A DNA stretch of 64,000 nucleotides from assembly GCA_027485645.1 (NCBI GenBank), contig JAIXQR010000003.1, positions 558,001 to 622,000 on the forward strand. The letters run 5' to 3'. Below are positions 50,741 through 60,843 of the stretch, piece by piece (within the stretch, counting starts at the first letter, position 1; each line of letters starts with the position of its first letter). Under the pieces are notes generated by a model. The model was not told the origin of the DNA, did no database searches, and saw only the letters and a program-made list of their open reading frames with translations. A program made the translations under genes and the position numbers. This DNA comes from a bacterium (GTDB lineage: Bacteria > Armatimonadota > Fimbriimonadia > Fimbriimonadales > Fimbriimonadaceae).

Positions 50741-51739
50741 ATGGCGCAGGATGTAAAATTTAAACTTGGCTTAACGCCGAGTATCCAGACTGCCTGGGTG
50801 TTCAGAAAAGCATTCACCCTCATTGAGTTGCTCGTCGTGATCGCAATCATCGCGATCCTTGCCGCAATCTTGTTCCCTGTCTTTGCCCAGGCAAAGCTTT
50901 CTGCCAAGAAGATTTCGGACCTATCGAACCAGAAGCAGATCGGCACCGGACTCCAGATCTACCTGGCTGACTACGACGACACGCTTCCGCCGTACCGAAC
51001 GCGAAACACGCCGAACCCAGGATTGCCGAACCCATACATCACCGGAAACTCGGCCGGGCGAATGTTCTTCCACCAGCTCCTTCACCCATACATCAAGAGC
51101 CTGGATATGTGGAAGAGCCCAATCAACCCTAGCGCTTGGGTTACGGCAAACACGTCTTGCGATCCGGCCGTCGGAAACGATGACAACCAGGACGCGGGAG
51201 ATGGCTGCAGCTACGGCGGACAGAACAGCTACGGTGTTAACAACTACGTCTTCCCAGCCGGCGCATCGCTCGCCAGTGCAAACCGAGCCGTTGGCCTCAA
51301 CTCCGGCGCCGTCGTTGAATCGGCAAACACCTATTTGATGATGAACGCACGCTACTACAACGTGCTTCCTCGCTACACTCGACCAGACGGCACCCCGGTC
51401 ATCGACGGTCTGCTCAACGGCGACGCCAGTGGGATGAATCCAAACGATCCAGCATCCTACGCCGACACCCTAAAGTACTACTACAACTACTGGAAGTACA
51501 TCAACTACGGACTTAGCTACAACCAGAATGGTGTGCCAGCTGGTTCCTTCTATGGCAACACGGCTAGCATCGTGTCTACGATTGAGAATCGAGGCAAGAC
51601 AGTTATGGGCGGCCAGGTGAACGTTGTTTTCGCTGACACTCATGCAAAGGCTCAGAACTACGTTCGAGTTATCGATGATCTCATCAATAACCCAACGAAT
51701 TCGTCCTGGGACCCTTACAAAGCTGGCTTGAAGCAGTAA
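50741..51739 (+). CDS. Type IV pseudopilin-like protein (prepilin N-terminal, C-terminal DxHAK)
   Basis: The 332 residues carry a class III prepilin segment: leader ending FRKA, cleavage before F, then [28 protein letters not shown] and LSNQKQ. The ATG at 50741 gives a 24-residue leader; a GTG at 50798 would give a five-residue MFRKA leader, which is more usual for a prepilin. DYDDTLPP after the helix may bind calcium. The C-terminus has [11 protein letters not shown], close to the DGHAK motif of the two other copies. Prolines are mostly CCA. It stands alone between a 15-bp inverted repeat and a terminator. Confidence 0.85.
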
Positions 51740-51793: not shown

Positions 51794-53539
51794 TTAGCCG
51801 ACCAGATGCTTCGCTCGGCGCTCGGCTGGGAGTTCCATGTCGCGGTTTTCGTCGATGAGTCCGCCGCCGATGCCGTCGCCGTAGACCGCGCTCAGGAGAG
51901 GGCCGTCTTGGAACTTCTTGCAGGCGACCCAACCATCTCGTGCCATGGCCTCAAGGGTCTGCACGAGCCGGGAGTGGGTGTAGCCATCGTAGGGCTCACC
52001 GATCTCGGCCAGCTTCGCTCGAATGAACTGGAACGCATGCTCCACGCTCGGCGAGAACTGCAATCCGGCTACGATCCAGCCGAAGTAGCCGATCAAAGGA
52101 AGGATTTTGCCGTCGCGTCGGAAAGCGGGCACGGGGATCACCCGTCCGGCCTCGTAGTGGGCAAATTCAATTCGCTCGGCATCTTTCAGCCGCAGAGTGA
52201 ATCCGCTGTAGCCATCGATCGGACTGACCGGTGGCTCGTCAGACAGTCGGTTCGAGATGAAGTGAACGCAGTCGAGGCTGAAACCGGCGATGCCGCCGAG
52301 GCCCATGTCCTCTTCGACAAAGCCACCTGTACCAAGCCATCGAAACGCCGCATTCGCGTCAAGATCAAGTCCAGCATCCTTCGCGATCTCGCGCGTGAAC
52401 TCTTTGAGTTCGCCAAAGTGACCGTTGGCGGTGTACCAGTAGTCGGCAAAGCGGATGTGCTGCAGAATGCGCCGGCGGTTTCGCTCGTCATACTGGGTCT
52501 TCAGCCATTCGTCGCGGCCCTTACCGAGTTCTAGGATTGAGCAAGCCGCTTCTTGCGCCGAAACGTGCGAGAGCGTCATGCCAGCGGCAAGAATCGGATC
52601 GGCAAAACCAGCCGATTCCCCGGTAAGGAACCAGTTCTTTCCGGCAAGGCGATCCGCGAGGAACGACCAGTCTTTCGTCGTCGCCAACTTCTCTTCGCGT
52701 GTTGCGTCTTGGAGAAGGTTCGCAATTCTCGGTTCTTCCGAAATGGCTTTGAGATACAGCTCCGTAGGTTTGAGGCCAGTCTTCTTGTAGTAATCCGCCG
52801 GGCAAATGAAACCGACCGAAGTTCGCGTTTCGCTGATTGGAATGAACCAGATCCAGCCGTAGCCGAGCGACATCACCTGGACTCGGGTGCCGCCAACGCC
52901 AAGGCTAACCGCCCATTCCGCGCTCTGCCAGTAGTCCCAAATCGCGATGTTCTTAAGGGTGCTGGGTTCGGAAACATCAACGCCCATGGCTCGCCGAAGG
53001 ACTCCAGCGTGACCGCTGGCATCGACGTAAGTTTTGGCGCGGATGATTTCGCCGTTGTCCAAGACCAGGTGGTCGATCAGGTCGTCTTCTTGGACAACCT
53101 TTCGAACGCCGGTTGCTTCGTAGACCTCGCAGCCAAGTTCCTTGGCGTGGTCAAGCAGGATCTTGTCGTAGACGGCGCGGTCAACTTGGAAAGCAGTCTG
53201 AAGTCGCTGACCCTCGAACTTTGCGGGTCGGGCTTCGTCGGCAAACGCTCCGTGGGCGATGAAGTTAAAGTCCCACAGGTCGTCGCTTTTGCCCCAGCGA
53301 TAAGTGGCTCCAATTTTAACGGGGAACCCGGCGGCTTCGATTTTGTCCCAAGCACCCAGTTCGTTGAGAACGCGGCTGATCAGAGGGAGCTGGCTTTCGC
53401 CTACGTGGTCCCGCGGGAAGATTTCTCGCTCAAAAATGCCGACCTTGAGGTTCGGGTTGTATTTAGCAAGAAACCCTCCGCAGGTGGAACCAGCCGGACC
53501 TCCACCAATGATTGCAACATCGAAATCTGTGGTTGACAT
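51794..53539 (-). CDS. Flavin-dependent halogenase-like FAD oxidoreductase
   Basis: The 581 residues form an FAD-binding monooxygenase fold: GGGPAGS (12-18), EREIFPRDHVGESQLP (37-52), the lysine of GFPVKIGATY (Lys75, aligned by eye with the catalytic lysine of CmlS/CndH-type halogenases), the halogenase signature WIWFIP (229-234, pattern WxWxIP), and GFADPILAAGMTLSH. These are shared by flavin-dependent halogenases and their non-halogenating relatives. The last 200 residues are a variable domain. It is the fourth gene of the lacI-pseudopilin-lipoprotein unit, 13 bp after the lipoprotein gene. No flavin reductase or biosynthetic cluster is adjacent. Confidence 0.8.
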   Translation of the reverse strand: MSTTDFDVAIIGGGPAGSTCGGFLAKYNPNLKVGIFEREIFPRDHVGESQLPLISRVLNELGAWDKIEAAGFPVKIGATYRWGKSDDLWDFNFIAHGAFADEARPAKFEGQRLQTAFQVDRAVYDKILLDHAKELGCEVYEATGVRKVVQEDDLIDHLVLDNGEIIRAKTYVDASGHAGVLRRAMGVDVSEPSTLKNIAIWDYWQSAEWAVSLGVGGTRVQVMSLGYGWIWFIPISETRTSVGFICPADYYKKTGLKPTELYLKAISEEPRIANLLQDATREEKLATTKDWSFLADRLAGKNWFLTGESAGFADPILAAGMTLSHVSAQEAACSILELGKGRDEWLKTQYDERNRRRILQHIRFADYWYTANGHFGELKEFTREIAKDAGLDLDANAAFRWLGTGGFVEEDMGLGGIAGFSLDCVHFISNRLSDEPPVSPIDGYSGFTLRLKDAERIEFAHYEAGRVIPVPAFRRDGKILPLIGYFGWIVAGLQFSPSVEHAFQFIRAKLAEIGEPYDGYTHSRLVQTLEAMARDGWVACKKFQDGPLLSAVYGDGIGGGLIDENRDMELPAERRAKHLVG

Positions 53540-53552
53540 AGGTTAGCTCGGG

Positions 53553-53762
53553 TTAGTTGCCGGCAGCGCCAGGAGCGACTTTGCCAATAACGTCCTTCGC
53601 TTGGTCTGGCATGTTGTTGCCGTTTGGAGCGTTCGGATTAGTCATCGGCTTCACGGGTGGGTTTGGAGTCGAGACTTGCCGAGTTTCGCTCGACTTATCT
53701 TCGGCGCAACCAACGAGTCCGAGCACAACAACGAATGCGGCGAGAAGGCTTAAGTTTTTCAT
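53553..53762 (-). CDS. Small lipoprotein of the LacI cassette
   Basis: The 69 residues begin MKNLSLLAAFVVVLGLVGC, a clear lipobox (LVGC). The mature part is short, with prolines, asparagines and Gly (PVKPMTNPNAPNGNN), ending KVAPGAAGN. It resembles the lipoprotein at 58168 in size and signal. It may dock to the pseudopilin made from the same mRNA. Function unknown. Confidence 0.75.
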   Translation of the reverse strand: MKNLSLLAAFVVVLGLVGCAEDKSSETRQVSTPNPPVKPMTNPNAPNGNNMPDQAKDVIGKVAPGAAGN

Positions 53763-53814: not shown

Positions 53815-54696
53815 TTATCGGTATTCAGGGAACAGGTTCTGAGCGGCGAGCTGTCGGTCAGCAATCGTCCAAGGCGTGCCCGAGACAGGGTTGTTCGAAA
53901 GGTTCGAAGCCCAGTCATCGTTCACGTTGTCGTTGGTTCGGAGGGTCTGCGCGTAAGGTCGTGCCTTAGCGTGGCCGTCTGCCCAAACGAAGTTGGAGTT
54001 CTTTCCAGCGGAGTGGATTGGTCCGTTTCCGAGAGCTGGGCAAGTTGGGGTTGCTGCACCGCGAGCGGTGATGCACCACGAGGTGTCGTTGACGCTGCTT
54101 ACGCCGCCTGGGAAGCCAACAGCACCGAAGTGCCACTTAAGGTCGTTCCACTGCGATCGGTTCGGGACCATGATGATGGTTCCGGCAACATCCTGAAGGA
54201 TGTCGAGGCTGCTCTGTCCGTTTGGCGTGTATGGTCCGCCGCACTCGCCGTTAGCAAATCCGATGAGGGAGTTGTTGACTGCGAAGTTGGAAGAAGCGTA
54301 TTGCTCGGCGTTTGGAACGCCCTGTCCGTCGAAGGAGACGGTCCAGAAGTTCTCAGCCTGGAATGGGTTGGTTGGATCCTGAAGGAGACCCTTGCTCTTC
54401 GTGTATGGCTGCATCGCGTGGCGCCAGCTGTAGAAAGCACCAGGCGTGCCCCAGGGAACATTGCCCCAGTTACATCCGCTTGGGAAGCCAAAGTATTCCT
54501 TGATCAAGGCGTCATCATAGTCGCCCATGTAGATCATGTTTGCGGTTGCGAGCTGCTTCGCGTTGCTGAGAGCAACGGTCTTCTTAGCGGCGAGCTTGGC
54601 CTGAGCGAATACTGGGAATAGGATTGCTGCGAGAATCGCGATGATCGCGATGACGACGAGAAGTTCAATAAGTGTGAACGCTTTCTTGTTTTTCAT
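53815..54696 (-). CDS. Type IV pseudopilin-like protein of the LacI cassette
   Basis: The ATG at 54696 overlaps the lacI stop (ATGA) and gives 293 residues. The leader MKNKKA precedes [19 protein letters not shown] and LFPVFAQAK, with SNAKQ and GDYDDALIKEYFG after the helix. The mature domain ends with HSAGKNSNFVWADGHAKARPY, the DGHAK motif. Three cysteines are scattered in the globular part. Expected to be processed by a PilD-type peptidase and assembled or displayed at the membrane. Its regulator and lipoprotein are the adjacent genes. Confidence 0.88.
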   Translation of the reverse strand: MKNKKAFTLIELLVVIAIIAILAAILFPVFAQAKLAAKKTVALSNAKQLATANMIYMGDYDDALIKEYFGFPSGCNWGNVPWGTPGAFYSWRHAMQPYTKSKGLLQDPTNPFQAENFWTVSFDGQGVPNAEQYASSNFAVNNSLIGFANGECGGPYTPNGQSSLDILQDVAGTIIMVPNRSQWNDLKWHFGAVGFPGGVSSVNDTSWCITARGAATPTCPALGNGPIHSAGKNSNFVWADGHAKARPYAQTLRTNDNVNDDWASNLSNNPVSGTPWTIADRQLAAQNLFPEYR

Positions 54697-55715
54697 GATT
54701 CCATCATTGGACATGCGGTCGATGACCGGACGACGAGGGTTGGTTCAAAAGTAATGTGCTTTGGCACGGGGTTGCCTTCAATGAGGTCAAGCACGGATTT
54801 CACCGCGTGCCTACCCATATCGGCGATGGGCTGAAACACGGTGGTAAGGGGAGGAATGGTGAGGCCACTGGCCGACGTCATGTCGAAACCGCAGATGCTC
54901 ATTTCGCCTGGCACGCTCACGCCCATTTCTTGGCACGCCCGCAAGGCACCGATTGCCATATCGTCGTTCGCACAAACCACGGCGGTCGGGCGGACGGGAA
55001 GAGCCAGCAAGCTCTTCATGGCGGCATAACCGCCATCGGGATGGAATTGACCTTTCAGCACCCACGAGTCGTGGTAGGCAAGCCGATTGTTGGTCATAAA
55101 TTCTGAGTACGCCCGCAATCGCTCGATTGCGTCCTGCATGTCGAGACGACCTGCGATGTGCGCGATCCGGCGATGCCCGAGATCGAAAAGGTGTCGCATC
55201 GCCAGCCGCATTCCCGTTTCGTTGGCGACCGATAGCGTGTGCACTCCGTCAATTTCGGAACCCGCGAGCGAGATGCAAGGAATGCGAAGCTCTTTAGCTA
55301 AGAGAACGGCCCGGTTGGTGCTGTTTGGTGCAATGAAAACGGCGCCATCGACGCGACCATCCAGGATGGTTGAAAGGACTTCTTCGTGACCCGATCCGGC
55401 TAAACGGGTGAAGAGCACAAGATCATGGTGGGATTTACCAGCAGCGTTAAAAATGCCGTTCAGCGCCAACTGAAGGTAGGGACTTAGCAGGACGTCCTCA
55501 ACGATTTCCGGGGGAACGATTCCAATCGTCCGACTGCGCCCGGTGACCATGGACTTGGCCACGCGATTAGGTCGGTAGCCCAACTCTCGGGCGGCATCTA
55601 GGACCTTTTCCCTGACCTCTGGGCTAACGGTCCGTGGGCCGCCGTTGATGGCGTAGCTCACGGTGCTGACCGAAACGTTCAGCAGTTTAGCAATATCTTT
55701 GATAGAAGTCGGCAT
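54693..55715 (-). CDS. LacI family transcriptional regulator
   Basis: The 340 residues have an N-terminal LacI helix-turn-helix (SIKDIAKLLNVSVSTVSYAINGGPRTVS, about 4-31), the hinge GYRPNRVAKSMVTG and a periplasmic-binding-protein-like sensor (IGIVPPEIV, VDGAVFIAPNST, GHRRIAHIAGR, ICGFDMTSASGLTIPPLTTV). It should bind a sugar or similar ligand. A perfect 20-bp palindrome lies 15 bp before its start. It is the first gene of the pseudopilin cassette and overlaps the pseudopilin gene by ATGA. Confidence 0.94.
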   Translation of the reverse strand: MPTSIKDIAKLLNVSVSTVSYAINGGPRTVSPEVREKVLDAARELGYRPNRVAKSMVTGRSRTIGIVPPEIVEDVLLSPYLQLALNGIFNAAGKSHHDLVLFTRLAGSGHEEVLSTILDGRVDGAVFIAPNSTNRAVLLAKELRIPCISLAGSEIDGVHTLSVANETGMRLAMRHLFDLGHRRIAHIAGRLDMQDAIERLRAYSEFMTNNRLAYHDSWVLKGQFHPDGGYAAMKSLLALPVRPTAVVCANDDMAIGALRACQEMGVSVPGEMSICGFDMTSASGLTIPPLTTVFQPIADMGRHAVKSVLDLIEGNPVPKHITFEPTLVVRSSTACPMMES

Positions 55716-56097: not shown

Positions 56098-57255
56098 ATG
56101 AGTCGAACATCACCTTTAGTGAATGCAATCACCGGAAAACTCCGGGAGGCAATCATAAGCGGACGATTTCCCGCAGGTTCGACCATGCCAGCGGAACGAG
56201 ACCTCTCAGAAGAATTTGGTGTCAGCCGAACGGCGGTGCGCCGAGCCATCGAATCTCTCGTCCAAGAAAACCTTTTGGAATCAATGCCACGTTGCCGCCC
56301 GGTGGTCATGGGGCCAATGGGGTTGCGGCAGGCTTCGGAACGGAAAGACGTCGCGGTTTGGCTCTGGCCGAGCTCAACCGGCTTCGCGGCATCGCACTTG
56401 CTTTCCGGAATCCAAAGCATTTTTAGCAACGAATCAAACGCTCGGTTGATCATTGGTAGCGCAACGGGCGACGACTGGGATTCGATGTGGGACTCGGAGG
56501 CGAAATTCCTTCGGTCGGTCGCCGAGGACCCGAATATCTCTGGCGCGATCCTTTGGTACATCGATGGCGTTGGGCATCGAAACGAGCTTGAGCGGATCCG
56601 GCAAGCCGGGGTTCAGCTTGTCTTCGTCGATCGCTACCTGGATCCGAACTATCCGGCGGACTACGTTGGTACCGATAACACGGGATCCGCAGAACTCGCG
56701 GTGAGTCATCTCGTTGAGCTTGGGCACACCCGGATCGCGATGATCCAAAACTTGGACTCGGCGAGTTCCGTTATGGAACGAGTTGACGGTTGGAAGGCCG
56801 CCTTGACTCGCGCAGGAATTGCTTACGACCCCGAATTGCTGGAGCGGCTCGATGAAACGGGCAGTGATCGCGAGCAAGTCGCTGGCCCGCTGAAGCGACT
56901 TCTTTCCCTGCCATCTCCGCCAACGGCGATTTTTTGCGTCAACGACCTGGTTGGCCTCACGGCTTACGACTTGCTTGAGTCTTGGGGAATCGATATCCCT
57001 GGCCAGCTTTCACTCGTCGGGTTTGACGGCCTCATGTCCTGGCTCCCTGGAAAAGGACACCTCACAACCGCCGTTCAAGACTTCCGACGCATCGGAGAGA
57101 TTTCTGCCCGCCTCGTACTCGACCGAGTTTTCGGTCGGGCCCCCCGTCCACATCGCCACACGATGCTGGCTGCCCCACTCTTGGTACTGAACTCTAGCGG
57201 TCCAGTGCCCCAAACCATCGCACCTATCTCAGCCCCGTTTGCAGGGGCAATATAG
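56098..57255 (+). CDS. GntR-type DNA-binding domain fused to LacI-type sensor
   Basis: Of 385 residues, about 1-70 are a GntR winged helix ([54 protein letters not shown]). The rest is a LacI/periplasmic-binding-like sensor ([66 protein letters not shown]). This chimera is known from arabinose repressor AraR. It should respond to a sugar. It is followed two bases later by a pseudopilin gene, mirroring the LacI cassette. The C-terminal tail after [11 protein letters not shown] is short and variable. Confidence 0.92.
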
Positions 57256-57257
57256 CC

Positions 57258-58166
57258 ATGAATAGAAAGGAACAAAGAGGTTTTACCCTCATCGAACTTC
57301 TGGTTGTCATCGCGATCATCGCAATTCTTGCGGCGATCCTCTTCCCTGTTTTTGCGCAAGCCAAAGCATCGGCAAAGGCAACCCAGTCGCTTAGCAACGT
57401 TAAGCAGATTGGTCTTGCTCAGCTGATGTACGCCAACGACTCCGACGACCTGTTCAGCCCGGTTCTTGCTTTCAAGCCCGACTGGATCATGCCGTCGTTC
57501 ATCGTGCTTCAACAGCCTTACATGAAGTCGCTTGATCTCATCATCGATCCACTCGGACCGGCGAAAGTGACCGACAACAACTTCATCTTGACCAGTACGT
57601 GGGGAATGCCTCCTCGACGAGATGCAACCACCCGCACGCCTACCTCCAACTCCTTCCGAATGGGACTGCGCTGGCCACTTAGCGGTCAGTTCACCGGCGG
57701 ACAAGTTTGGGAAGTCGATGGTATTGGCGGCGTAAGCAAGGAACCAGGCACTTGGATCTGGCCTTCTTCCGGTTACAAGGACAGCGCCCCTTCGCTCAGC
57801 ACGACGGCGGTTGCTCGCCCATCCGATCAGGTCATGATTGCCCAGGCAAACCACCCGGACTTCAACTGGCCACTCGGATGCGAACCGCTCAACTGGTTCC
57901 GATACTGGGGTGATCCTCCCTTCAACCTTTACGGTGACAGCAACATGATCTGCGCTCCTGCAGGTCGCGTTCAAGCGCAAGGAATCCAGGCTGGAATCAT
58001 TCCGGTCTCGACCGACCGCGGCACTATCACGACCTTCCCAGTTGGCCGAAACATTTATGTTGCGACCGACGGACACGCAAAGTCCACGCCTTGGCGTCAA
58101 CTGATGAGCAAGCGAGCTGTCCGCGGAACGCTCACCACTCTCGACGCTTTCTGGCCAGCCGAATAG
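57258..58166 (+). CDS. Type IV pseudopilin-like protein of the GntR cassette
   Basis: The 302 residues have the leader MNRKEQRG, then [28 protein letters not shown] and [15 protein letters not shown] matches the acidic motif of the other copies. The C-terminus reads [21 protein letters not shown], with DGHAK. It has several Trp-Pro motifs in the globular part ([28 protein letters not shown]). It lies two bases after gntR and one base before the lipoprotein gene. Confidence 0.88.
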
Positions 58167-58167
58167 G

Positions 58168-58368
58168 ATGAACAACCGGTACTTCACCCTGCTGTTGGCA
58201 GGCGTCGTACTCGGATTGGTAGGTTGCTCGGGTAGTGACGCGATGCCTGCAAAGGATAAGGACACGCTCCAAAGCAACCTGAACACTCCGGTTGATGTCG
58301 AAAAAGTTCGAGCGGAATACGCAAAGGAAAAGGGTAACCAGACCGGCGCGCCGACCGAAAAAATGTGA
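58168..58368 (+). CDS. Small lipoprotein of the GntR cassette
   Basis: The 66 residues begin MNNRYFTLLLAGVVLGLVGC (lipobox LVGC, with Ser at +2). The mature part is 47 residues, charged and helical (DVEKVRAEYAKEKGNQTG). It matches the lipoprotein at 53553-53762 in length and in the VVLGLVGC signal. It is transcribed with the pseudopilin gene one base upstream. Function unknown. Confidence 0.78.
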   Translation: MNNRYFTLLLAGVVLGLVGCSGSDAMPAKDKDTLQSNLNTPVDVEKVRAEYAKEKGNQTGAPTEKM

Positions 58369-58374
58369 GATCTT

Positions 58375-58406
58375 GCCCGGGCCAACTTTTGTTGTCCCGG
58401 GCATTT
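58375..58406 (+). terminator. Terminator after the GntR cassette
   Basis: GCCCGGG (58375-58381) and CCCGGGC (58396-58402) form a stem with a 14-base loop that has further partial pairing (CCAAC...GTTGT), followed by ATTTT. It lies six bases past the lipoprotein stop. Confidence 0.8.
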
Positions 58407-58416
58407 TAGCGTCTGG

Positions 58417-58446
58417 ACCGACGCTTACTGAAACGGTTCAGTCGGT
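58417..58446 (+). promoter_or_regulatory. LacI-like palindrome upstream of the GH35 gene
   Basis: CTGAAACGGTTCAG (58428-58441) is a palindrome with a central ACGG, flanked by ACCGA (58417-58421) and TCGGT (58442-58446). Its core GAAACGGTTC is close to the lacI operator core GAAACGTTTC at 55731-55750. It ends 18 bases before the ATG at 58465, so binding would block transcription or leader access. Confidence 0.6.
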
Positions 58447-58464
58447 AGAATCCCGCTTACTGCA

Positions 58465-60843
58465 ATGGCGCATTTGGCAAGTCGAAAATTCATCGTCGCC
58501 GGTAAACCCGCGCTGGTTCTTTCTGGAGAAGTGCATTACTTCCGATTGCAGCGCTCGGAATGGGAAGATCGGATCATCAAGACCAAGCAAGCCGGCTGCA
58601 ATGCGGTCGCGAGCTACATTCCCTGGCTGTTCCACGAGGAAGAAAACGGATTCATTGATGTGACGGGAAAGACACGCCCAGAACGTGACCTTGGAGCGTT
58701 CATTGATCTGTGTAAGAAGCACGACTTGTGGTTCATCGCTCGACCGGGGCCATACATCATGGCCGAGGTCAAGAACGAAGGGATTCCGCACTGGATATAT
58801 GAAAGTTGCCCCGACGCGATTCCTCCAATTTGGGAAGGTAAGCCAGCGAAAAGTGCAGTTGTCCGCTATAACGATCCCGATTTTCTTCGCTACGTCGACC
58901 GTTGGTATTCCGAGGTCATGAAACCAATAGCGTCGCGATTGGAAACCAAAGGCGGTAACGTGATCTCCGTTCAGTTGGACAACGAAATTGGGATGCTCCA
59001 ATGTTGGTCCGAAGACCCAGATTTGAGCGAAGCCACGTTGTGCGAGTTTGCCGCGTTTGTTCAAGCCAAGTATCCGGCCGATGAATTGGCGAAGCGATAC
59101 GGATTCGACATGGGCGATCCCACCGTTCGAGTCAAGCAACTTCGAAGTGCGCAGGGCCCAAGCGCGCTGCCGTTCCATTCGGACTACACCTGGTTTGCTC
59201 GCACCCTTTTTAACCGGTTCGTTGCAGCGCTTCGTGGCTTCGCCGAAAAGGCCGGCGTCACCGGCGTTCCGTTCATCATCAACATTCATGGCAGCGGCGG
59301 CGGACGGGCGACCACGTTCCCAATCGGGATTGCACAGACCTATGAAAGCTACACCCAAGCCGCGGGGTATTGGGGGTCTTCCGATCACTATTTAGGCGAG
59401 CTGACGCGAGACAATGCGGGCGACCTTTACATGCTGAATGCCTTCATGGCGGCGGTCAATCGGCAGGAGCAACCGCTTTCCTCCGTTGAGTTTGAAGCAG
59501 GCACGGGCGATTACGGCGAAATTGGGGGCACTCGGTACACGAACAAGGCCACGGATTTCAAAGCCCGCTTGAGCGTGGTGCAGGGCAATCGGATGCTCAA
59601 CCACTACCTGATCGCGGGTGGCCGAAACCCGATGCTGGATAAACCGCTCAAAGATGGGAACGGCCGCCTTGGCACAACCGGTGAGCGACACGGATTCGCT
59701 GCGCCAATTGGCCCCGAGGGGCAGCTTGACCCCGTTTACTTCGGCCTTAAGGACACCAACGAGACCCTCATGGCGGTTGAGGCTTGGCTGTCGGAAGCGC
59801 GCCAGGAACTAGACGGGGTGTCGCTGGGCTTTATCCCCGACTACTATTCAACCGACGTGAAGCCCGCCGGGCCGATGCGAGAATTGGCCAGCAAGCTGGA
59901 GGCTGCTCGCGGTTGGCAAGAGCGGCTCGTTCGCGCGCTGCTGGACCAGAGCGTGAGCTTTGACGCGGTGAACTTGCAGGCCGAGGCAGAAATCAAAGCG
60001 CCGGTTTTGGCGCTGGCGACCTCCGTTTGCATGGCGCCTTCGGTGGCAAGTCGGCTCCTGAACTACGTGAAAAAAGGCGGCACTTTGATGCTGTTCGGCC
60101 CTGTGCCCACCGAGGATATGGAAGGGAAGCCGATGAACCTCTTGGTGGAGGCTCTTGGGCTGACGCTTCATCCTGGACTTACGTCCAGTCGGCACTCTTT
60201 CCCGTCGACCCAAGGGGTCGGATTTGCGTCTTTTGAGCCCGAAGTTCGGGTCTGGGAAGGGATCCCTTTCACGATGAAGTCTGGAACTCCATTCCTCCGG
60301 ATTGCCCAAACCGAGCATTTTGGTGGCGGGATGATTCCATTCGGTTCGGGCAAAGTGTGTCTTCTCACCGTGCAACCGCCTCAGCACCGACGCCTTTGGC
60401 GGGCCTTGTTCAACGAACTCAATGTTCGGGCCGGCGTACAGCACGATTCTCCAAACGGTGGCGTTTTGCTTCAGCGCGTGCGTCATCAGCAATCTCGGTT
60501 CATCAGCTTGATCAACCTCGACGCGGACCCGAAGGACCTTCAGATCACGGATGGCGGGGAGTCTCTGTTCTCCGGCAAGGTTCACCTGCCAGCACGAACG
60601 GCGAAGCTTCTGCCGCTCAATGTGCCGATAGGTGGCTTCCTCATCAGCCGGTCAACGGCAGAGATCGTGGCGTCGTCTGCGAACTCGGTTTCTTTCCGAA
60701 AGGGGCCGGTAGATGAGGTTGCTATTCTGCGCGGAAAGCCGAAAGTAGTCGGCGGCGGTGCGAGTTTGCGCTTGCTTCAAGGCGACGAATATCGACTCGA
60801 GATCGAGCCCGGAGTTGGCAAGATCGAGATCCGGCAGGCGTAA
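58465..60843 (+). CDS. GH35-like beta-galactosidase
   Basis: The 792 residues begin with a GH35 TIM barrel: VLSGEVHYFRLQRSEWEDRIIKTKQAGCNAVASYIPWLFHE, FIARPGPYIMAEV, and the proton donor Glu174 in VQLDNEIGML. The likely nucleophile is in SSVEFEAGTGD (Glu342 or Glu344). The C-terminal half has jellyroll and GATase-like segments (GGTLMLFGPVPTED). There is no signal peptide, so it is probably cytoplasmic or exported by another route. It releases beta-linked galactose or a related sugar. It follows the GntR cassette and probably has its own promoter with a LacI-like site. Confidence 0.88.
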   Translation: MAHLASRKFIVAGKPALVLSGEVHYFRLQRSEWEDRIIKTKQAGCNAVASYIPWLFHEEENGFIDVTGKTRPERDLGAFIDLCKKHDLWFIARPGPYIMAEVKNEGIPHWIYESCPDAIPPIWEGKPAKSAVVRYNDPDFLRYVDRWYSEVMKPIASRLETKGGNVISVQLDNEIGMLQCWSEDPDLSEATLCEFAAFVQAKYPADELAKRYGFDMGDPTVRVKQLRSAQGPSALPFHSDYTWFARTLFNRFVAALRGFAEKAGVTGVPFIINIHGSGGGRATTFPIGIAQTYESYTQAAGYWGSSDHYLGELTRDNAGDLYMLNAFMAAVNRQEQPLSSVEFEAGTGDYGEIGGTRYTNKATDFKARLSVVQGNRMLNHYLIAGGRNPMLDKPLKDGNGRLGTTGERHGFAAPIGPEGQLDPVYFGLKDTNETLMAVEAWLSEARQELDGVSLGFIPDYYSTDVKPAGPMRELASKLEAARGWQERLVRALLDQSVSFDAVNLQAEAEIKAPVLALATSVCMAPSVASRLLNYVKKGGTLMLFGPVPTEDMEGKPMNLLVEALGLTLHPGLTSSRHSFPSTQGVGFASFEPEVRVWEGIPFTMKSGTPFLRIAQTEHFGGGMIPFGSGKVCLLTVQPPQHRRLWRALFNELNVRAGVQHDSPNGGVLLQRVRHQQSRFISLINLDADPKDLQITDGGESLFSGKVHLPARTAKLLPLNVPIGGFLISRSTAEIVASSANSVSFRKGPVDEVAILRGKPKVVGGGASLRLLQGDEYRLEIEPGVGKIEIRQA

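Follow-up and report, generated by a model that had tools for sequence, protein, structure and literature searches.

What does an enzyme resembling flavin-dependent halogenases do among pseudopilin genes of a bacterium of the Fimbriimonadaceae, and on what would it act? We addressed this question in a stretch of 64,000 nucleotides, referred to here as the window. A first-pass annotation of the window had named four motifs in a 581-residue protein, and we found all of them in the translation: GGGPAGS at residues 12-18, VGESQLP at 46-52, GFPVKIGATY with K75, and WIWFIP at 229-234. That annotation had also placed the gene behind regulator, pseudopilin and lipoprotein genes, and it does indeed lie in an operon-like, tightly spaced minus-strand series in the order LacI, pseudopilin, lipoprotein, enzyme. 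The features of the locus, and the second copy of the enzyme in the same genome (G000), are as follows.

51794..53539, minus strand: flavin-dependent halogenase-like enzyme of 581 aa by sequence and fold comparisons; intact open reading frame with an ATG start.
52424..53539, minus strand: putative FAD/halogenase catalytic part, approximately residues 1-372, from the alignment to 8zop, PltA and CmlS and from the model.
53315..53317, minus strand: codon of Lys75, presumed to be the catalytic lysine that guides HOX, aligned with halogenases and invariant in 126/126 relatives.
52838..52855, minus strand: WIWFIP, an instance of the WxWxIP motif, residues 229-234.
51917..52204, minus strand: predicted RRE-like winged-helix domain, residues 446-541, strands and then three helices, from models and VIA-align matches.
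53553..53762, minus strand: small lipoprotein of 69 aa, 13 bases upstream of the enzyme; similar lipoproteins occupy the same place at L003-L006 and L074-L077.
53815..54714, minus strand: pseudopilin of 299 aa with a prepilin N-methylation motif (PF07963, 1.4e-9); candidate substrate or partner.
54693..55715, minus strand: LacI-family regulator (PF00356, PF13377), first gene of the presumed operon.
50741..51739, plus strand: second pseudopilin (PF07963), convergent, 54 bases from the 3' end of the enzyme gene.
G000:C3:681953-683551: second enzyme copy, 53% identical, with a pseudopilin on both sides and an upstream lipoprotein weakly like lipocalins.

The motifs are not a product of chance, because the enzyme scored 107.3 bits against Pfam PF04820 (Trp_halogenase, cut-off 21) and matched solved halogenases in phmmer searches (8zop, which is FasV, 2.1e-49; PltA 7.8e-49; CmlS 8.1e-44; CndH 1.2e-37). 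Scores against narrower families all fell below their curated cut-offs. The CmlS equivalog NF033113 gave 178.2 bits against 900, the QhpG, LodB and GoxB NCBIfam models gave 104.5, 85.8 and 54.7 bits against 240, 400 and 400, and the geranylgeranyl reductase subfamily TIGR02032 gave 86.9 against 158.8. On these scores we ruled out equivalogs of CmlS, QhpG, LodB and geranylgeranyl reductase, and we therefore regard the protein as a halogenase-type flavoprotein belonging to a family of its own and not as a known equivalog.

The predicted fold was consistent with this assignment. The full-length AlphaFold2 model (pLDDT 86.5) was built from an alignment of 63 sequences that left aside L003 (97% identical), a number of other copies and all loci retrieved by searching genomes. 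Among the best 50 VIA-align rows, CndH ranked first with Z 45.4 (2.2 A over 370 residues), followed by FasV (44.5), Bmp2 (42.2), RadH (41.1), 3nix (40.6), PltA (39.7) and CmlS (39.1). A geranylgeranyl-reductase-like active site had been offered as the alternative to a halogenase, and the geranylgeranyl-reductase-like structure 3oz2 scored lower than CndH, PltA and CmlS, at Z 33.6. QhpG was ranked 42 by Foldseek for the same model and was absent among the best 50 VIA-align rows.

We then asked how the putative catalytic residues were retained. In alignments, K75 matched the lysine of FPKKFG in PltA and Mpy16 (5buk) and the corresponding lysine of ChlB4. It was invariant in 126/126 non-redundant full-length relatives from Armatimonadota, Planctomycetota, Cyanobacteria and one alphaproteobacterial metagenome-assembled genome (MAG). 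These 126 were what remained of 186 ORF matches after removal of 13 shorter than 500 aa, 27 lost to an over-strict motif filter and 20 duplicates, with genes in the relatives called as longest ORFs rather than taken from annotation. The WxWxIP signature was likewise retained (W229, W231 and I233 in 126/126, P234 in 121/126), as were G311-F312-A313-D314-P315, L317 and G320 in all 126. When every ORF of 500 aa or longer was counted, duplicates included, F[PA]xKxG occurred in 172 of the 173 and WxWxI in 173. The conserved halogenase lysine is described as guiding HOX (PMC12645471, PMC7336383), and the K73A substitution in MppI is reported to abolish bromination (PMC11791876). Because of this role of the lysine, its strict retention over three phyla argues for halogenase chemistry, without proving it. 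A further halogenase motif, Fx.Px.Sx.G, in which x. stands for any number of residues (PMC7336383), was represented by F312, P315 and G320, with Ala318 in place of the near serine; at this position, which is Ser in the strict form D-P-x-x-S-x-G, the 126 relatives carried Ala in 65 cases, Ser in 59 and Thr in 2. Sequence matches, the aligned invariant lysine and the predicted fold thus agree that the protein is of the flavin-dependent halogenase type, as first proposed, and from them we infer its chemistry. The two outcomes that the first-pass annotation had named as fatal, an unaligned lysine and a geranylgeranyl-reductase-like structure, accordingly did not arise for the lysine or for the predicted fold. 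Its other suggestion, a relative that does not halogenate, may still apply, given Ala318 at the strict serine position.

The family is not confined to the window's lineage. We collected 70 loci from a genome collection, in Armatimonadota, in Phycisphaerales and other Planctomycetota, and in filamentous cyanobacteria; the remainder came from an alphaproteobacterial MAG, a Burkholderiaceae MAG and a contig with an archaeal label, the taxa being those given in the record titles. The last of these, labelled Methanoregulaceae (the L049/L060 pair), had a gene order in common with a Fimbriimonadaceae contig and very similar neighbours, and it was probably mis-binned. The enzyme was found in 34 of 291 Armatimonadota genomes, 32 of which belong to the same family as the window genome and 2 to a different family within its order. 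Copy number could be high: across 50 genomes searched, a set that excluded L072 and the window genome, we counted 18 in G021, 14 each in G003 and G005, 13 in G004 and 11 in G017. The window genome itself has 2 copies, each with a pseudopilin on either side.

The pseudopilins are candidate partners of the enzyme. The order LacI, pseudopilin, lipoprotein, enzyme recurred at L003-L006, L074, L076 and L077, at 59-97% enzyme identity. Over all Armatimonadota copies, a pseudopilin lay within 600 bp of 39/95, compared with 7/108 background genes more than 3 kb away; the other 56 copies had none within that distance. Several pseudopilins of the window adjoin LacI or GntR regulators. It is distinctly possible, although we lean against it, that the link is genomic background, with dozens of regulator-pseudopilin pairs fronting unrelated genes and the enzyme acting on a different target. 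In the 3.19 Mb of the window genome the prepilin N-methylation motif was matched 73 times, and at 56098-60843 of the window a GntR-type regulator with a LacI-like ligand domain and a pseudopilin stand in a row with a GH35 enzyme that is unrelated. The near-to-background difference and the recurrence of the four-gene order down to 59% identity, however, speak against it.

A second neighbour recurred beside the Armatimonadota copies. A TPR-Sulfotransfer_3 protein was encoded within 3 kb of 26/126 copies, 25 of them in Armatimonadota, although not in the window. In similar lengths of DNA, with duplicate loci partly removed, there were 24 matches near the enzyme and 3 far from it. The closest solved sulfotransferases were protein-tyrosine sulfotransferases 1 and 2 (approximately 6e-9 to 2e-8). 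These Armatimonadota neighbours fit a protein-decorating module. At L106:4986-12001 and L112:3294-10277, and also at L042, L028 and L007, islands combined a pseudopilin and a lipoprotein with between one and three halogenase-like genes and with this TPR-sulfotransferase. Adjacency to P-domain proteins was seen in 2/50 genomes (G009 and G012; 24 genomes have P-domains, and the search excluded L072 and the window genome) and additionally at L068 and, with a match below the Pfam cut-off, at L059. We set this link aside, as the cases were too few to rely on.

How the enzyme might engage a protein is suggested by its C-terminal tail. Modelled alone, residues 425-581 gave a pLDDT of 89.3, with predicted strands at 446-449, 455-463, 466-475 and 478-481 followed by helices at 484-495, 499-512 and 519-535. 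This predicted order is that of a strand-first winged helix, βββ-ααα, and agrees with the order by which RiPP recognition elements (RREs) are defined (PMC12710340). The best VIA-align rows for the tail were TbiB1 (7.3, two entries) and 6jx3 (6.8), whose structures were both determined with a leader peptide; next came, among others, Rickettsia PKMT2 (6.6), TbtB (6.3), MccB (6.2) and PqqD (5.7), with MINA53 (5.3), NovN/GdmN (5.3), the PbtF RRE (5.2) and TruD (4.5) lower down, and Z values below 8 can mean no more than a common arrangement. 6jx3 is a lasso peptide B1 protein, which we take to be FusB1, and TbtB, MccB and TruD presumably contain RREs. MINA53/NO66 and NovN/GdmN we assume to belong to the PF08007 JmjC and PF02543 carbamoyltransferase families, respectively. 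RRE-like folds have been reported in proteins of both PF08007 and PF02543 (PMC12710340).

Pfam PqqD was matched by 0/63 tails and there was no convincing Pfam match in the 63 members; a sequence search of the PDB with the tail returned no relative and no RRE, and a Foldseek search with the tail model gave no match better than E 0.14. A profile of the tail scored 22.1 against PqqD over 50 columns, above the best of 40 shuffles (13.6) yet below a GntR winged helix, which reached 27.7 over 23 columns, so that generic winged helices were not separable from RREs and we rejected this comparison as sequence proof. We call the tail RRE-like on the basis of its predicted strand order and its fold ranking, and it may bind a peptide. 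Modification of a surface protein is the reading that we favour for the window enzyme, because of the RRE-like tail together with the enrichment beside pseudopilins.

The filamentous cyanobacterial relatives offered a further candidate substrate. Of the 14 cyanobacterial loci in the collection, 10 encoded a peptide of 62-102 aa made of tandem TENLDIAHTW-type units, 69-466 bases upstream of the called enzyme ORF, and upstream of the peptide lay a gene for an AetD-like protein of 234-248 aa. The other four loci, from Okeania, were without repeat peptide and AetD and had a PEP-CTERM exported protein instead. We searched 386 cyanobacterial genomes for the enzyme and, separately, for a DNA pattern encoding HTWTENLDI. 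The enzyme was carried by 6 genomes, two already in the collection (L024 and L048) and four new, and the pattern matched 5 genomes, all among these 6. In the three new pattern-positive genomes the repeat peptide was upstream of the enzyme; the sixth genome had variant TETLDISHTW repeats at the same place, which the pattern missed. The short precursor gene was thus linked to the enzyme in 14/14 repeat loci and in 6/6 of the enzyme-bearing genomes, and the order AetD-like gene, peptide, enzyme held in all 14 HTW-repeat loci, although these cyanobacteria are related and the counts are not independent. The first-pass annotation had judged that the setting of the enzyme is not that of a natural-product cluster. 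This was borne out for the window and fails for the cyanobacterial relatives, which sit in a RiPP-like cluster.

The AetD-like neighbour is an AetD homolog by pairwise search (4.6e-54) and by profile (2.8e-71), and it was found at all four new loci. The metal ligands D76, H79, E140, H172, E176 and H179, identified from the AetD ligands given in PMC10654658, were conserved in 9/9 aligned copies. AetD is described as a diiron enzyme that converts (bromo)Trp to an indole nitrile (PMC11611611, PMC10654658) and that does not itself need a halogenated substrate (PMC10654658). A FMO-like gene lay beside three of the HTW-repeat/AetD-like loci; among the 43 solved sequences listed for it, no entry was named AetF.

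We looked for the same logic outside the repeat loci. At non-Armatimonadota loci without the repeat, an HTW-like motif, [HSAG][TSM]W.[GSAE][DEN][LMVTI], occurred in 7/67 near proteins and 5/557 far ones (p 6e-5, for a motif written after sight of these sequences). As a general rule it was rejected, with 0/100 near proteins of Armatimonadota copies and 0/7 further planctomycete copies matching, and we kept it only as a lead. No HTW repeat peptide was found near Armatimonadota copies. An AetD relative was found in 0/291 Armatimonadota genomes at 1e-15, in a search run without a positive control, and in the window genome the HTWTENLD pattern, with as many as 3 mismatches allowed, matched 3 dispersed single sites and formed no array. 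These searches thus lend no support to the logic of a Trp-repeat peptide in the window. Pseudopilins near the enzyme were no richer in Trp than those far from it (3.3% in both), and the lipoprotein was rejected as a Trp substrate, since the window copy has no Trp.

Together these data suggest that the family consists of flavin-dependent halogenases with a C-terminal RRE-like domain that act on ribosomal substrates encoded nearby, a reading to which we assign a probability of roughly 60%. From the halogenase family it follows that FADH2 and O2 would yield a C4a-hydroperoxide and that this would oxidise halide to HOX. Lys75 would then direct the HOX at an aromatic side chain, most probably that of Trp, of a substrate peptide or protein gripped by the RRE-like tail. 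We infer this grip from the tail and, for the cyanobacteria, also from how strictly the enzyme is linked to a Trp-repeat peptide. The substrate in filamentous cyanobacteria would very probably be the HTW-repeat peptide encoded next to the enzyme, and the AetD-like enzyme may then handle the (halo)Trp of this peptide. In the window, the candidate substrate would be the presumably co-transcribed pseudopilin or another exported protein.

We consider it unlikely that the enzyme instead halogenates a small or carrier-bound molecule and that a CmlS-like tail merely resembles an RRE. CmlS and PltA rank with the nearest relatives of the enzyme and CmlS aligns over 473 residues, the tail included, but compared alone the tail matched the tail of CmlS with a VIA-align Z of only 3.0, and in cyanobacteria it is a Trp-repeat peptide that accompanies the enzyme. 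One relative, at L036:8536-12558, had an AMP-binding/carrier-domain (PP-binding) protein 1 kb away, which hints at an assembly line and would suit a carrier-bound substrate; apart from it, no carrier-protein gene was seen in the neighbourhoods read by eye. A peptidyl-tryptophan monooxygenase like QhpG, LodB and GoxB, related flavoproteins that modify Trp of a partner protein, would share the fold and act on a protein too, hydroxylating Trp, but we think this quite improbable, since, against the family matches above, the replacement of the motif serine by Ala318 and a report that QhpG is structurally closest to CmlS, with channel residues Trp181 and Trp183 (PMC7876137), stand scores far under the curated cut-offs, the aligned lysine that is invariant in 126/126, and a QhpG phmmer match that begins only at query residue 103, with the lysine region unaligned.

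A halogenase with an RRE-like domain acting on ribosomal substrates would differ from the systems already described. The enzyme has the fold, the GxGxxG motif, the aligned lysine and WxWxIP in common with CmlS, CndH, PltA and FasV, but it has the RRE-like tail in addition and no assembly-line genes beside it in the window. The reaction proposed for it, flavin-dependent halogenation of peptidyl Trp, is that of MibH, SrpI and MppI (PMC12615548) and ChlH (PMC12518702), which we compared by description only. SrpI is described as having no embedded RRE (PMC10858898) and ChlH as leader-independent (PMC12518702), and in PMC11791876 there are 0 occurrences of an RRE for MppI. With RiPP recognition elements the tail shares the predicted strand-first βββ-ααα order, and they lead its VIA-align rows, mixed with PKMT2 and MINA53, although no tail matched the Pfam PqqD model. 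We found no RRE-fused flavin halogenase in the open-licence literature; the RRE-Finder supplementary tables may list such fusions. If the proposal is true, the built-in domain for gripping peptides would turn the halogenase into a modular means of placing halogens on peptides or proteins of choice. For Armatimonadota, one would then have to ask whether pilin-like surface proteins are halogenated and perhaps sulfated, and a function may emerge for part of the pseudopilin expansion.

A broader form of this proposal can be sketched, and we hold it to be doubtful. Halogenases fused to an RRE, which in Armatimonadota often lie in tandem and number up to 18 per genome, would decorate cognate pseudopilins together with the protein-tyrosine-sulfotransferase-like enzyme. 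In the cyanobacterial branch, tandem Trp cores would serve as a scaffold from which the AetD-like enzyme makes (halo)indole nitriles, and halogenation of exported ribosomal products would be widespread.

Within the cyanobacterial branch, the linkage makes the HTW repeats a testable substrate and points to a route in which tryptophan-derived nitriles would be made on a peptide scaffold. The neighbour there is a homolog, with all six metal ligands, of AetD from the aetokthonotoxin pathway; AetD acts on free (bromo)Trp, whereas the cyanobacterial loci encode Trp within the repeat peptide. The HTW peptide was not found at three cyanobacterial loci with plasmid AetD-like relatives. Among the matches listed, AetD-like diiron proteins, at approximately 29-43% identity, occurred on plasmids of Escherichia, Salmonella, Streptomyces clavuligerus, Piscirickettsia and cyanobacteria.
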